Source: Bacteroidales bacterium (GTDB taxonomy: Bacteria; Bacteroidota; Bacteroidia; Bacteroidales; F082). Taken from it: 64,000 bases of DNA. Below are positions 18,283-57,812 of the stretch, piece after piece. The notes under the pieces are model-generated. The model saw only the letters and a program-made list of their open reading frames with translations. It was not told the origin of the DNA and did no database searches. Both the position numbers and the translations under genes were made by a program. Positions within the stretch are counted from its first letter, which is position 1, and each line of letters opens with the position of its first letter. The stretch is from positions 1 to 64,000 of the forward strand of contig WGCY01000049.1 in NCBI GenBank assembly GCA_015493525.1. Direction: 5' to 3'.

Positions 18283-18331
18283 TCTTTTCAGTTTCAATTG
18301 AAAGTGTAAAAGTAGGGATAATTGAGCATTG

Positions 18332-18485
18332 GTCAAGCGGGAGTCAAACAATGGTCAAGCGGTGGTCAAGCAATTGTCAGGCAGTTGTCAGGCGATGGTC
18401 AGGCAATTGTTAAACAATGGTCAAACAATGGTCAAACAATGGTCAATCAGTGGTCAAGCAGTGGTCAAACAATGGTCAGAAGGTG
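18332..18485 (+). repeat. 11-nt tandem repeat array, 14 units, consensus GTCAARCAATG
   Basis: Indel-free: GTCAAGCGGGA|GTCAAACAATG|GTCAAGCGGTG|GTCAAGCAATT|GTCAGGCAGTT|GTCAGGCGATG|GTCAGGCAATT|GTTAAACAATG|GTCAAACAATG|GTCAAACAATG|GTCAATCAGTG|GTCAAGCAGTG|GTCAAACAATG|GTCAGAAGGTG. Confidence 0.92.
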
Positions 18486-18738
18486 GCTGGTTTGTGGCAG
18501 GGATGGAAGCGGCATCCGGTGGCAGACGGGGGCTTTGGTTTTTGCTGACAGGCGGAGGCTGAGGCACGAAGACCCCGTACTGGCATTGCAAAACCTGCCG
18601 CCGGCAACAGCGATACAGCGGACAGCCCGGTACGGTTCGCGTGGGCTTTGCGCGTGGGAACCGTAGCCACCCAATAAAATAAGTACCCGAATACGCCCCA
18701 AACCACGCATTGTTTTCACGGGCAAGCCACAATCTTTT

Positions 18739-52776: not shown

Positions 52777-53508
52777 ATGATCAAGCTCGATAATATTCAT
52801 AAATCGTATCAGATGGGGAAAAACAACCTCCATGTTTTGAAAGGTATTCATTTGCATATCCGTGAGGGAGAGCTGGTTTCCATTATGGGATCTTCCGGAT
52901 CGGGAAAATCCACTTTGCTGAACATCCTCGGGATTCTCGACAGCTACGATGAGGGGAAATATCTCCTCGACAAAACCCTTATGGAAGGGCTGAACGAAAA
53001 AAAGGCGGCTTTTTACCGCAACAAAATGCTGGGGTTTGTTTTTCAGTCGTTCAACCTGATTCCTTTTAAAAACGCCATGGAAAATGTGGCGTTGCCTTTG
53101 TATTATCAAAAAGTTCCCCGCAAAAAGCGAAACAAAATAGCCCTGGAATATTTGGAAAAAATGGGACTCAGGCCCTGGGCCGAACATCTGCCCAACGAGC
53201 TTTCAGGCGGACAAAAACAGCGGCTGGCCATTGCCCGGGCCCTGATCTCGAACCCCAAAGTCATTCTTGCTGATGAGCCCACCGGTGCGCTTGACTCCAA
53301 AACATCCATGGAGGTCATGGAGCTGCTCCGCCAAATCAACGGCGAGGGAATTACCATGATTATTGTTACCCACGAACAGGATATTGCCGAGCAGACCGAC
53401 CGCATCATACACCTGAAAGATGGCCGTATAGAAAATGATGCCAGCGACTCCGAAGAGAGACAAAAAGTTTTTGAAACACTGGAAAAAGAAGAGGCATTAC
53501 AGGCATGA
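52777..53508 (+). CDS. ABC transporter ATP-binding protein (MacB/LolD type)
   Basis: GSSGSGKSTLLNILGILD, ELSGGQKQRLAIARALISNPKVILADEPTGALDSKTS. Confidence 0.95.
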   Translation: MIKLDNIHKSYQMGKNNLHVLKGIHLHIREGELVSIMGSSGSGKSTLLNILGILDSYDEGKYLLDKTLMEGLNEKKAAFYRNKMLGFVFQSFNLIPFKNAMENVALPLYYQKVPRKKRNKIALEYLEKMGLRPWAEHLPNELSGGQKQRLAIARALISNPKVILADEPTGALDSKTSMEVMELLRQINGEGITMIIVTHEQDIAEQTDRIIHLKDGRIENDASDSEERQKVFETLEKEEALQA

Positions 53509-54740
53509 TTATCGACAGAGATAAATGGCAGGAGATATTCAGTACCATCAACAAAAACAAGTTGCGTACTTTTCTAACAGGGTTCAGCGTGGCCTGGGGA
53601 ATCTTTATGCTGATTATTTTGTTGGGTTCAGGCCGTGGTTTGCAAAACGGTGTGCAACATCAGTTTGCCGACGATGCCACCAACAGTCTGTGGATCTATC
53701 AGGGGCTGACTACCAAACCTTTCCATGGGATGAATGCCGGACGGAAAATTCAGTTTACCAATACCGATTATACGCGTACAAAGCGGCTCGACAAACATAT
53801 CGACCACATTTCGGGACACTATTATGTGGGGAGCAAAACCATCAGCTACCAGTTCAATTACGGCTCCTACGATATCCGTGCGGTAAATCCCGGACACAAA
53901 TACATTGAGAATACCGACATTACCAAAGGTCGTTTTCTGAACCGCCTCGACATGGAACATTTCAGCAAAGTGGTGGTCATAGGTGATATTGTGCGCAAAG
54001 ACCTTTTTAAAAACGGTGAAAACCCGTTGGGAAAATATGTCAAAGTTGGTGATATTCCGTTTAAGGTGATTGGCGTTTTTAAAGATGCCGGCGGCAACGG
54101 TGAGATGCGAAAAGTCTATATTCCGGTAAGCACGGCACAAAGGGTCTTTAACGGAGGTAACAGGTTGAACCAGATTATGTTTACTGTCGGGAATGCCACA
54201 CTGGGCCAGACCAAGCAGATTGAAAAAGAGGTGCGTACAGAATTTGCCAAAGTGCACCATTTCGACCCCGCCGACCGTCGTGCCATCCGTATTTCAAACA
54301 ACCTCGATGAACACCAAAAGGTAATGAACCTCTTTCTTGGTATCCGGATTTTCATCTGGATTATCGGTATTGGTACCATCATTGCCGGCATTGTGGGTGT
54401 GAGCAATATTATGATGATTGTGGTGAAAGAACGTACCAAAGAAATTGGCATCCGCAAAGCACTCGGGGCTACGCCCAAATCTATTGTCGGGTTGATTTTG
54501 CTGGAATCGGTAATTATCACCAGCATGGCCGGTTACATTGGACTTATGGCCGGCGTGGGCCTGCTGGAACTGATAAACAAATACATGCCGCCTTCCGACT
54601 TTTTCAGAAATCCCGAAGCCAACCTCTCCATTGCCCTGACAGCCATGGTCCTGTTGGTAATTGCCGGAGCCATTGCCGGATTTATCCCGGCCAAAAAAGC
54701 CGCCTCCATAAAACCCATTGAAGCTTTGCGGGACGAATGA
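53505..54740 (+). CDS. ABC transporter permease (MacB/FtsX family)
   Basis: FLTGFSVAWGIFMLIILLGSGRGLQNG, VGVSNIMMIVVKERTKEIGIRKALGATP, IPAKKAASIKPIEALRDE. Confidence 0.94.
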   Translation: MIIDRDKWQEIFSTINKNKLRTFLTGFSVAWGIFMLIILLGSGRGLQNGVQHQFADDATNSLWIYQGLTTKPFHGMNAGRKIQFTNTDYTRTKRLDKHIDHISGHYYVGSKTISYQFNYGSYDIRAVNPGHKYIENTDITKGRFLNRLDMEHFSKVVVIGDIVRKDLFKNGENPLGKYVKVGDIPFKVIGVFKDAGGNGEMRKVYIPVSTAQRVFNGGNRLNQIMFTVGNATLGQTKQIEKEVRTEFAKVHHFDPADRRAIRISNNLDEHQKVMNLFLGIRIFIWIIGIGTIIAGIVGVSNIMMIVVKERTKEIGIRKALGATPKSIVGLILLESVIITSMAGYIGLMAGVGLLELINKYMPPSDFFRNPEANLSIALTAMVLLVIAGAIAGFIPAKKAASIKPIEALRDE

Positions 54741-54796
54741 GGAACGAGGAACGAGGAATGAAAAATGAAGAATGAAGAATGAAGAAGGGATGAGGA

Positions 54797-54969
54797 GACG
54801 AAGAGAAATTGAGAAGTTGAAAAATGAAAAATAGAAAGATTGACAACCGTTTAACAATGAATGACAACTGTTTGACAATGAATGACAATTGCCCGACAAC
54901 TGTCTGACAATGAATGACAATTGCCTGACAACCGTCTGACAACACAGCGAATGACAAATTAACAAATGA
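54797..54969. repeat. Modular 10/11-nt repeat element, copy A
   Basis: Leader GACGAAGAGAAATTGAGAAGTTGA...; core GACAACCGTTT|AACAATGAAT|GACAACTGTTT|GACAATGAAT|GACAATTGCCC|GACAACTGTCT|GACAATGAAT|GACAATTGCCT|GACAACCGTCT; tail GACAACACAGCGAATGACAAATTAACAAATGA. Confidence 0.88.
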
Positions 54970-54989
54970 CGAAATGACCATTACCAACC

Positions 54990-56258
54990 ATGAAGATATT
55001 TGATTTAGACAACTGGCAGGAGATTTGGACAGCGTTGAAAAAGAATCCGGTGAGAACTTTTTTCACGGCTTTCGGCGTATTTTGGGGCATCTTCATGTTG
55101 GTGGTTATGCTTGGGTCGGGAAAAGGGCTGCAAAATGCCGTTTATCAGGGTTTTGGCGACTTTGCTACCAACAGCTTTTTCATGTGGGCACAAAAGACAT
55201 CCATGCCTTACCAGGGATTCAAAAGGGGCAGAAGTTTCAATTTTACCAACAGCGACATTGAAGCCATAAAAAAGAATGTTTCTGAAGTGAAACTGGTGGC
55301 CCCCCGGCTTCAGGGTGGTGGTTACCGTGGTGCCAGCAATGTGGTACGCGGAAAAGAATCAGGGGGTTACACCATTTATGGCGACTATCCCGATTTTATG
55401 AAAATAGACCCTGTTGACATACTCTCCGGTCGTTTCATCAACCTGAACGATGTGCGCAAATACCGCAAGGTAGCAGTCATTGGCAAAGATGTGGTGAACG
55501 GACTTTTCAAAAACGGCGAAAAACCCATCGGGAAATATATTCGTGTACAGGGAGTCTATTTTGAGGTCATCGGAACTTTTAAATCAAAGAAAAAGGGCGG
55601 GCGGGCTGACCGCGACAACAACAGTATTTTCCTGCCGTTTTCCAGTATGCAACGGACCTTTAACTACGGAAACAAAGTTTTCTGGTTTGCCATCACCTCG
55701 CAGGACAATGTGCCTGCTTCCGTTACCGAGGCAAAAGTAATTGCCCTTATGAAAAAAATCCATCACATCAACCCCAAAGACACACAGGCCATTGGCCATT
55801 TTAATGTGGAGAAAGAGTTTAAAAAAATGTCGGGATTGTTTACCGGTATCAACGGCCTCATATGGATTGTAGGCGTGGGAACATTGCTGGCCGGTATTAT
55901 TGGCGTTTCCAATATTATGTTGATTATTGTGAAAGAGCGTACCCGCGAAATAGGCGTAAAACGCGCCCTCGGTGCCACACCCATGAACATTATTTCGCAG
56001 ATTATCCTGGAGTCGGTAACTCTCACTACCGTAGCTGGTTATGTGGGACTGGTGGTGGGTGTCAGCCTGCTTTCGCTCATCGATAAAATTATGGTGAAAA
56101 GCGGTGCCAGTTCGCAGTTCTTTCTGCACCCGGAAGTCAATTTCCATGTGGCATTGACCGCTTTGGGCGTATTGGTAATTTCCGGCATCCTGGCAGGGCT
56201 AATCCCGGCCAAACGTGCCGTAAGCATAAAGCCGGTGGAGGCATTAAGGGACGAGTGA
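54990..56258 (+). CDS. ABC transporter permease (MacB/FtsX family)
   Basis: FFTAFGVFWGIFMLVVMLGSGKGLQNAV, VGVSNIMLIIVKERTREIGVKRALGATP, IPAKRAVSIKPVEALRDE. Confidence 0.94.
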   Translation: MKIFDLDNWQEIWTALKKNPVRTFFTAFGVFWGIFMLVVMLGSGKGLQNAVYQGFGDFATNSFFMWAQKTSMPYQGFKRGRSFNFTNSDIEAIKKNVSEVKLVAPRLQGGGYRGASNVVRGKESGGYTIYGDYPDFMKIDPVDILSGRFINLNDVRKYRKVAVIGKDVVNGLFKNGEKPIGKYIRVQGVYFEVIGTFKSKKKGGRADRDNNSIFLPFSSMQRTFNYGNKVFWFAITSQDNVPASVTEAKVIALMKKIHHINPKDTQAIGHFNVEKEFKKMSGLFTGINGLIWIVGVGTLLAGIIGVSNIMLIIVKERTREIGVKRALGATPMNIISQIILESVTLTTVAGYVGLVVGVSLLSLIDKIMVKSGASSQFFLHPEVNFHVALTALGVLVISGILAGLIPAKRAVSIKPVEALRDE

Positions 56259-56309
56259 GGAATGAGGAACGATGAATGAAGAATAGACGAAGAGATGAAG
56301 AGATGAAGA

Positions 56310-56484
56310 GACGAAGAGAAGTTGAGAAATGAAAAATAGAAAGATAGACAAACTATTCAACAATGAATGACAATTGCCTGACAATGAATGACAATGAATA
56401 ACAACTGCCTGACAATGAATAACAACCGTTTAATAATGAATGACAACCGTCTGACAGCGCAGCAAATGACAAATTAACAAATGA
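56310..56484. repeat. Modular 10/11-nt repeat element, copy B
   Basis: Leader GACGAAGAGAAGTTGAGAAATGAAAAATAGAAAGAT; GACAATTGCCT/GACAATGAAT core; tail GACAGCGCAGCAAATGACAAATTAACAAATGA. Confidence 0.85.
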
Positions 56485-56498
56485 TGAAGAAACAAAGG

Positions 56499-56703
56499 GA
56501 CGAAGAGAAATTGAGAAGTTGAGAAATGCGAGATAAAAATATTGACAACTGTTCAACGATGAATGACAATGATTGACAACCGTCTGACAATGATTGACAA
56601 CCGTCTGACAATGATTGACAACCGTTTGACAATGAATGACAACTGTTTGACAATTGCCTGACAACCGTCTGACAGCACAGCAAATGACAAATTATCAAAA
56701 TAG
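56499..56703. repeat. Modular 10/11-nt repeat element, copy C
   Basis: Leader GACGAAGAGAAATTGAGAAGTTGAGAAATG; core alternating GACAATGATT (10) and GACAACCGTCT (11); tail GACAGCACAGCAAATGACAAATTA. Confidence 0.88.
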
Positions 56704-56729
56704 TATAAAACAATAAAATAGCACAAAAC

Positions 56730-57812
56730 ATGAAGACGTTTTTTAAAATTCTAGTGATTATTATCATTTTGGGTGTTTTCGGATATACCCTTTACTACTT
56801 GTGGGACAAATCAAAAGAGAAACCCGTCGTTTACAAAACAGAAACACCGTTTGTTACCAATATTATCAAGAAGACCGTAGCCACAGGTTCGGTGGTCCCC
56901 CGAAAAGAGATTGATATCAAACCTGTTGTTTCCGGCATCATTTCTTCCCTCTATGTGCAGGAAGGCCAAATGGTGAAGAAAGGAGATTTGATTGCCAAAA
57001 TCCGGCTGATTCCCAATATGATCAACCTGAACAACGCCGTTTCGCGGGTTGACCAAGCTAAAATTAACCTGAAAGAAGCCAAGCGCAATTACGACCGTCA
57101 GCACGAGCTGCTGGTAAAAGGGGTAATTGCCCAGTCTGATTTTGATGCTGTGGAGACCAAATACAGCATTGCCCAGGAAGAGTTGCAAACGGCAAAAGAA
57201 AACCTGCAACTCATCAAAGAAGGACAAATCAAGAAAAAAGGTGCGCCTACCAACACGCTGGTCCGCTCTACCATTTCGGGTATGGTGCTGGACATACCGG
57301 TAGAAATCGGCAATCAGGTCATAGAAGCCAATAACTTCAACGCGGGAACTACCATCGCCACCGTGGCCGATATGAACGACATGATTTTCAAAGGAAAAAT
57401 CGATGAAACGGAAGTGGGAAAAATAAGGGTAGGTATGCCGCTGATTCTTACTATCGGGGCCATCGACAATGCCAAATTTGATGCTGTTCTTACCAAAATC
57501 GCCCCCAAAGGTGTGGAGGAAAACGGTGCCATTCAGTTTGAGATACAGGCCGATGTAAAATTAAAGAAAAATCAGTTTATCCGATCGGGGTACAGTGCCA
57601 ATGCCGATATTGTGTTGCAACGTGCCGATAAGGTGCTGGCCGTACCGGAAGGGTTGTTACATTTTGAAGGCGACTCGACCACTTACGTGGAAGTGGAAAC
57701 CGCCCCGCAGGTATTTAAAAAACAGGTAATAAAAACGGGAATATCAGATGGTATTAACATTCAGGTACTCTCCGGTCTGAAAAAAGGCACAAAGATAAAA
57801 GTGCCGAAATAG
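56730..57812 (+). CDS. Efflux transporter periplasmic adaptor (MacA/HlyD family)
   Basis: N-terminal TM, VATGSVVPRKEIDIKPVVSGIISSLYVQEGQMVKKGDLIAKI, coiled coil, VLSGLKKGTKIKVPK. Confidence 0.93.
   Translation: MKTFFKILVIIIILGVFGYTLYYLWDKSKEKPVVYKTETPFVTNIIKKTVATGSVVPRKEIDIKPVVSGIISSLYVQEGQMVKKGDLIAKIRLIPNMINLNNAVSRVDQAKINLKEAKRNYDRQHELLVKGVIAQSDFDAVETKYSIAQEELQTAKENLQLIKEGQIKKKGAPTNTLVRSTISGMVLDIPVEIGNQVIEANNFNAGTTIATVADMNDMIFKGKIDETEVGKIRVGMPLILTIGAIDNAKFDAVLTKIAPKGVEENGAIQFEIQADVKLKKNQFIRSGYSANADIVLQRADKVLAVPEGLLHFEGDSTTYVEVETAPQVFKKQVIKTGISDGINIQVLSGLKKGTKIKVPK

Follow-up and report, generated by a model that had tools for sequence, protein, structure and literature searches.

A Family of Degenerate 11-nt Tandem Arrays in the Intergenic Spacers of Uncultured Bacteroidales

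The stretch of DNA analyzed here (the window) comprises 64,000 nucleotides of the genome of a Bacteroidales bacterium and carries an ABC transporter operon on its plus strand. The operon begins with the transporter ATPase gene (52777..53508; open reading frame with a PF00005 match at E=3.4e-31) and continues with permease 1 (53505..54740; MacB_PCD and FtsX domains, PF12704 and PF02687), permease 2 (54990..56258; MacB_PCD and FtsX domains) and a membrane fusion (adaptor) protein of the HlyD family (56730..57812), the last two likewise assigned from open reading frames and domains. Three repeat elements on the same strand occupy its spacers. Copy A (54797-54969) lies between permease 1 and permease 2, and the spacer separating permease 2 from the adaptor gene holds copies B (56302/56310-56484) and C (56499-56703) in tandem, in agreement with a preliminary description of this DNA, which had also correctly given all three copies a purine-rich leader, a core of 10- and 11-nt units and a tail. 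In copy A, the leader (54797..54840), which has homologous sequence in two related genomes (G003 and G011), is followed by a core of 10- and 11-nt TRACNAYYGNN units (54841..54936) and by the tail TGACAACACAGCGAATGACAAATTAACAAATGA (54937..54969), in which a GCGNAGC mini-hairpin motif is degraded. Copy B consists of a leader with degraded first units (56310..56367), the end of the leader being similar to that of A, a core (56368..56451) and a tail (56452..56484) with an intact GCGCAGC and the same continuation as in A (AATTAACAAATGA). Copy C has a leader (56499..56542), a core with a 21-nt higher-order period (56543..56669) and a tail (56670..56703) that continues like the single copy in the permease 2-adaptor spacer of G011 (AATTATCAAAATAG...). 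Tandem Repeats Finder (TRF) reported a heptad microsatellite, GAATGAA/GAACGAG, after the permease 1 stop codon (54735..54796, 7.4 copies) and an octad microsatellite, GAAGAGAC, ahead of copy B (56281..56319), and the purine-rich leader is better regarded as grading into such GAAYGAR heptads and octads.

Copies A, B and C are members of a genome-wide family of intergenic arrays with the pattern TRACNAYYGNN. When up to two mismatches were allowed, the unit pair TGACAAYNGYYTGACAA matched 25 places in the window, compared with a mean of 0.38 and a maximum of 2 in shuffled sequences, and a 26-nt three-unit pattern had 146 matches in the whole genome and none for the reversed control. In a BLAST search, copy A matched the 2.85 Mb genome at 22 places; only at A, B and C themselves did the match extend over leader and tail, the other places matching the core, and about 17 array loci are present in this genome. 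A fourth array of the family in the window, with 14 units on the minus strand (18325..18478), adjoins a Flavo-1-like RNA and had rightly been related to the core of the three copies. The previously proposed unit formula was sound in its 10/11-nt core, and its consensus was corrected to TRACNAYYGNN, with a 10-nt form, TRACNATGAA. Tiling of 67 arrays, drawn from this genome and its relatives, yielded 541 units, in which steps of 11 nt (n=434) predominated over those of 10 nt (n=39) and 12 nt (n=1), so that the spacing is close to one turn of the DNA helix. The largest arrays reach 26 units.

Within interior units, positions 1, 3, 4, 6 and 9 are near-invariant, position 2 is G or A, positions 7 and 8 are pyrimidines, positions 10-11 are mostly AA, TT, CC or TC, and position 5 may be any base. 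Heterozygosity within arrays ranged from 0.013 to 0.098 at the five fixed positions versus 0.31-0.47 at positions 5, 7, 8, 10 and 11, a contrast whose size is partly due to ascertainment because most arrays were retrieved by a pattern that includes the fixed positions. A less biased recount used only spacers reached through protein orthology of permease 2 (22 units from five homologous spacers), where 4 of 110 cells deviated at fixed positions versus 36 of 85 at free positions (Fisher p about 1e-11, the cells not being independent). Arrays from other genera also kept the fixed positions, with different fillings (GCA, GTA; CA/TA endings). Identity at variable positions was 0.39 between arrays and about 0.5 within them, and the units behave as draws from a constrained degenerate pattern, with no single exact unit being copied. 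The possibility that the arrays are recent copies of each other was rejected, as the longest exact match between loci was 35 nt and most were far shorter. The combination of some fixed bases with others that are nearly free suggests that the pattern is recognized by something.

These features bear on the main alternative, in which the arrays are functionless, passive minisatellites, generated by slippage and unequal recombination and dispersed into spacers where they do no damage, their common pattern reflecting common descent. The presence of two- and three-unit higher-order repeats is in line with this explanation, as is the richness of the genome's spacers in other low-complexity words (TAAAAGT, CATCCCACATCCCCA, GAATGAA). 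However, near-constant positions next to diverse ones are not expected of neutrally drifting tandem copies, units of the same array resemble each other only slightly more than they resemble units of other arrays (the last two bases excepted), and spacings one base longer are almost absent. Moreover, likeness at variable positions between adjacent units (0.468) was below that of within-array shuffles (0.507, sd 0.012), whereas likeness at lag 3 (0.546) was above it, which argues for growth by blocks and against single-unit slippage. The independent sample in support of these points is small. Passive growth is somewhat unlikely, and the earlier view that the elements are non-coding and not the product of plain microsatellite growth was borne out.

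The ends of the three copies have a more local history than the core. The leader pattern occurs at three further sites in the window genome and is therefore not unique to the ABC operon. The tail TGACARCRNAGCRAATGAC was found without mismatch at 3 sites in the window genome (G000), all in this operon, and at 11 sites in G005, 2 each in G002 and G011, and 1 in G003. It includes the motif GCGNAGC, which only B retains intact, A and C having degraded forms of it; d(GCGNAGC) sequences form exceptionally stable DNA mini-hairpins. The permease 1-permease 2 spacers of G003 and G011 contain the leader end and tail as in A. In the permease 2-adaptor spacer of G011 there is one copy, continuing like C, and B resembles A on both flanks of its core. 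This alignment suggests that A and C descend from ancestral arrays and that B is probably an intra-operon copy of A, a local duplication of the kind that passive growth would also produce. Because the ends of A, B and C appear to reflect vertical inheritance and copying within the operon, they do not mark out a mobile element whose termini are fixed, and this reading was rejected. As for the propagating element with defined ends that had been proposed, the recurrence of the core throughout the genome and in relatives was upheld, while the mobile, fixed-terminus part was not; restriction to this operon by local duplication, named at the outset as the outcome that would count against it, largely describes the leader-core-tail composite but not the core family. 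Leader and tail are thus the least general part of the array family, and the core is its general feature. Carriage by viruses was also rejected, since a search of 2.9 million viral contigs gave 24 single matches and no contig with more than one.

The array family is almost confined to one family of uncultured Bacteroidales. Matches were found in 20 of the 173 genomes of this family, mainly in genera g1, g2, g9 and g12, and in a sample of 396 genomes from the phylum there were three others, each with a single match; the relatives are metagenome-assembled genomes of uncultured Bacteroidales/Bacteroidetes. Orthologues of permease 2 were identified in 10 of the 12 genomes of the genus. Five of them have a permease 1-permease 2 spacer of about 120-249 nt with an array (G000, G002, G003, G005 and G011), and another five have an array-free spacer of about 14-65 nt (G004, G006, G007, G008 and G009). 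Similarly, the sufB-sufC spacer contains an array only in G000 and G003 and lacks it in the other 10 of the 12 genomes. The suggestion that the element is conserved for function therefore failed in the sense that it is not essential to the operon, and array-free orthologous spacers in so many congeners imply that any host function is dispensable. This uneven distribution, in which close relatives lack arrays or have lost them, again favors passive growth. On the other hand, at least 12 orthologous spacers bear arrays in two or more species, and in such spacers the arrays stay while their units turn over.

The genomic context of the arrays, which lie at gene borders, was scored in 61 spacers, using gene calls based on codon usage; the long open frames that adjoin antisense arrays agree with these calls. 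The arrays were sense to two co-directional genes in 31 spacers and antisense in 18, with 9 divergent, 2 convergent and 1 undetermined case; a strict sense orientation relative to genes was thus rejected. Many arrays are located in short co-directional spacers or at the 3' ends of genes, and the neighboring genes that were inspected are housekeeping genes of the chromosome. For comparison, a ParR/parC plasmid centromere is an array beside parM/parR on a plasmid. In short, operon-like spacers sense arrays predominate, and in longer ones antisense arrays (p=0.001). In 57 of the 61 spacers the sense strand was the less structured of the two. Fold z values of the sense strand were -0.3 to -0.75, and only the antisense strand of copy A reached -4.0.

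Such strand asymmetry might reflect a role in mRNA, where an unstructured, stop-rich sense strand would end readthrough or stage reinitiation between co-transcribed genes, or serve as the site of a translation regulator, as proposed for TAACTGA repeats. The recurrence of TRA every 11 nt places stops in all three sense-strand frames, 475 of 540 units carry a stop at positions 1-3, and the two bases that mostly fill position 2, G and A, both give a stop; the weak sense-strand structure and the preference for sense arrays in short spacers are also consistent with this role. However, in 18 of the 49 tandem-gene spacers the array is antisense to both neighbors, and in 17 of these the closest gene border is a 3' end. 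Furthermore, positions 4, 6 and 9 are fixed yet irrelevant to stops, and stop-destroying A3>G changes (5) were not rarer than A6>G changes (2). Changes of G2>A (26) exceeded those of G9>A (10), but only 16 versus 8 when counted by array. Selection for stop codons hence received no clear support from the substitution counts and was set aside. With arrays also lying in antisense and no clear selection on stops, the mRNA-level roles are weakened and considered distinctly unlikely, and the use of both orientations points to DNA rather than mRNA as the level of action. A related proposal, that the arrays are Rho utilization sites in which an unstructured, 11-nt periodic RNA with more C than G halts transcription into the adjacent gene, could draw on the sense-strand C/G ratio of 1.35 and on the 17 of 18 antisense-spacer arrays that point into a gene end; it is most improbable given a C content of 24%, the conserved G at positions 2 and 9, and the location of arrays within housekeeping operons such as sufB-sufC.

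Some arrays in G000, G005, G012 and G076 contain longer hairpin units of the form TGAC-(NNNC)GNA(GNNN)-AAA. In this TGAC register, the stems are GTGC/GCAC, GCCC/GGGC and GGCC/GGCC and the loops GAA, GCA and GTA; as the stem changes preserve pairing, a hairpin is plausible at these longer-stem units. In two spacers of G076 (L270, contig C352; L271, contig C360), 11-nt units and GNA-loop hairpin units form mosaics within one spacer, where N runs adjoin some of the arrays. In addition, Y1/IS200-like transposase genes of the family (L283-L299) have REP-like hairpins on their flanks, each with a 4-bp stem and a GNA loop (TCCCGTAGGGA, TTCCGTAGGAA and TCCCGAAGGGA), with several repeats at one locus. 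Arrays might accordingly be targets of a Y1/RAYT-type transposase that uses TGAC plus the GNA-loop mini-hairpin as a cleavage or recognition site and whose activity spreads them. The covarying stems of the TGAC units and the hairpins of comparable architecture beside Y1 genes, such as TCCCGTAGGGA, would suit this idea, which nevertheless appears very unlikely: Y1 genes were present in 16 of 16 genomes tested whether or not these had arrays, array units occurred in the retrieved flanks of 0 of 30 Y1 loci, and the two kinds of hairpin differ in their flanks. No co-occurrence of arrays and Y1 transposases was found in these genomes and loci, and the link was rejected.

Several known systems resemble the arrays in part. 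Intergenic TAACTGA direct repeats, or long simple sequence repeats, have a single exact heptamer as their unit and were proposed to be translation-regulator sites (MacGregor 2015; PMC4679880). They often lie ahead of start codons. In both cases short direct repeats occupy intergenic sequence and, read in one orientation, place stops in every frame, and both show a patchy distribution that includes Bacteroidetes, with array-free orthologous spacers in relatives. In contrast, the units described here are not exact tandem copies but follow an 11-nt degenerate pattern of fixed and free positions, and the intergenic arrays are antisense in a third of tandem-gene spacers (18, with 31 sense). PHO boxes and other OmpR/PhoB-type operators are 11-nt direct repeats at promoters, defined by PhoB binding (PMC4415409). 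The arrays have the same head-to-tail 11-nt units, part conserved and part free, one per helical turn, and their reverse strand contains a GTCA core, the PHO box of Escherichia coli being CTGTCAT; they differ in reaching 26 units and in lying often within operons or at 3' ends. REP elements of the GTAG and CGTC superfamilies accompany RAYT transposases (PMC3733652). Like them, the arrays are intergenic and in some units have a tetranucleotide followed by a small hairpin, but the core is non-palindromic, the tag would be TGAC instead of GTAG or CGTC, and no transposase gene was found beside the arrays, nor array units around the 30 Y1 loci. Finally, the arrays share a non-coding intergenic nature with Rfam RNA families, whereas a scan of 54700-56760 gave no Rfam match up to E=1 and the sense strand showed no unusually stable fold. 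The arrays are thus a real intergenic repeat family, a variant of bacterial intergenic direct repeats, for which no matching description was found in Rfam or in the literature searched, as the preliminary description had anticipated.

The explanation that we tentatively favor, while giving it somewhat less than an even chance, is a DNA-level, helically phased array bound by a putative protein; it is preferred to passive growth. Fixed positions amid free ones, a spacing of one helical turn and the occurrence of both orientations fit sequence-specific, head-to-tail recognition of DNA by a protein. The fixed positions would be the contacts of a sequence-specific DNA-binding protein, which may load head to tail onto a single face of the helix, with one protomer for each turn, by analogy with OmpR/PhoB-type regulators on 11-bp direct repeats. 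Array length would change by gain or loss of two- or three-unit blocks, and arrays inside operons may be tolerated mainly in the orientation that gives unstructured RNA. Against a protein-binding array, it should be noted that arrays frequently lie within operons or at the 3' ends of genes, which is unusual for operators, and that they are missing from the orthologous spacers of many congeners. A bolder form of this reading, in which head-to-tail protein filaments on dozens of dispersed, phased 11-bp arrays bordering genes, their end units being GNA mini-hairpins, form an undescribed chromosomal system that sets transcription or nucleoid boundaries, is speculative and regarded as unlikely. Intergenic tandem repeats in bacteria are usually taken as slippage products, and treating units as draws from a constrained pattern turns the question of their being binding platforms into a concrete one; the bases to mutate are those at the fixed positions, and array-free congeners may provide natural controls.

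Besides the arrays, spacers across the genus are filled with differing, species-specific repeats. Unbiased sampling of spacers drew on G000 and G004, with about 400 kb from each, the stretches of G000 being picked away from known array loci. Other intergenic tandem words in G000 (L168, L183 and others) include TAAAAGT (10 copies), CATCCCACATCCCCA (6 copies) and a 38-nt CCTAACATCC unit. The sufB-sufC spacer of G004, alone, holds a gene for a four-helix-bundle protein (PF05635) together with AAGTACTT repeats (L258). A link between arrays and PF05635 genes was rejected: one such locus in G000 is flanked by arrays on both sides, but the other six copies lie away from known arrays. The Flavo-1-like RNA next to the 18.3 kb array (18492-18636, plus strand), upstream of a prfB-like gene, is a sub-threshold match to RF01705 (27.4 bits versus a gathering threshold of 42, E=0.001). 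Similar Flavo-1-like elements are found at five other loci (L113, L114, L132, L150 and L155), and several of them adjoin arrays.
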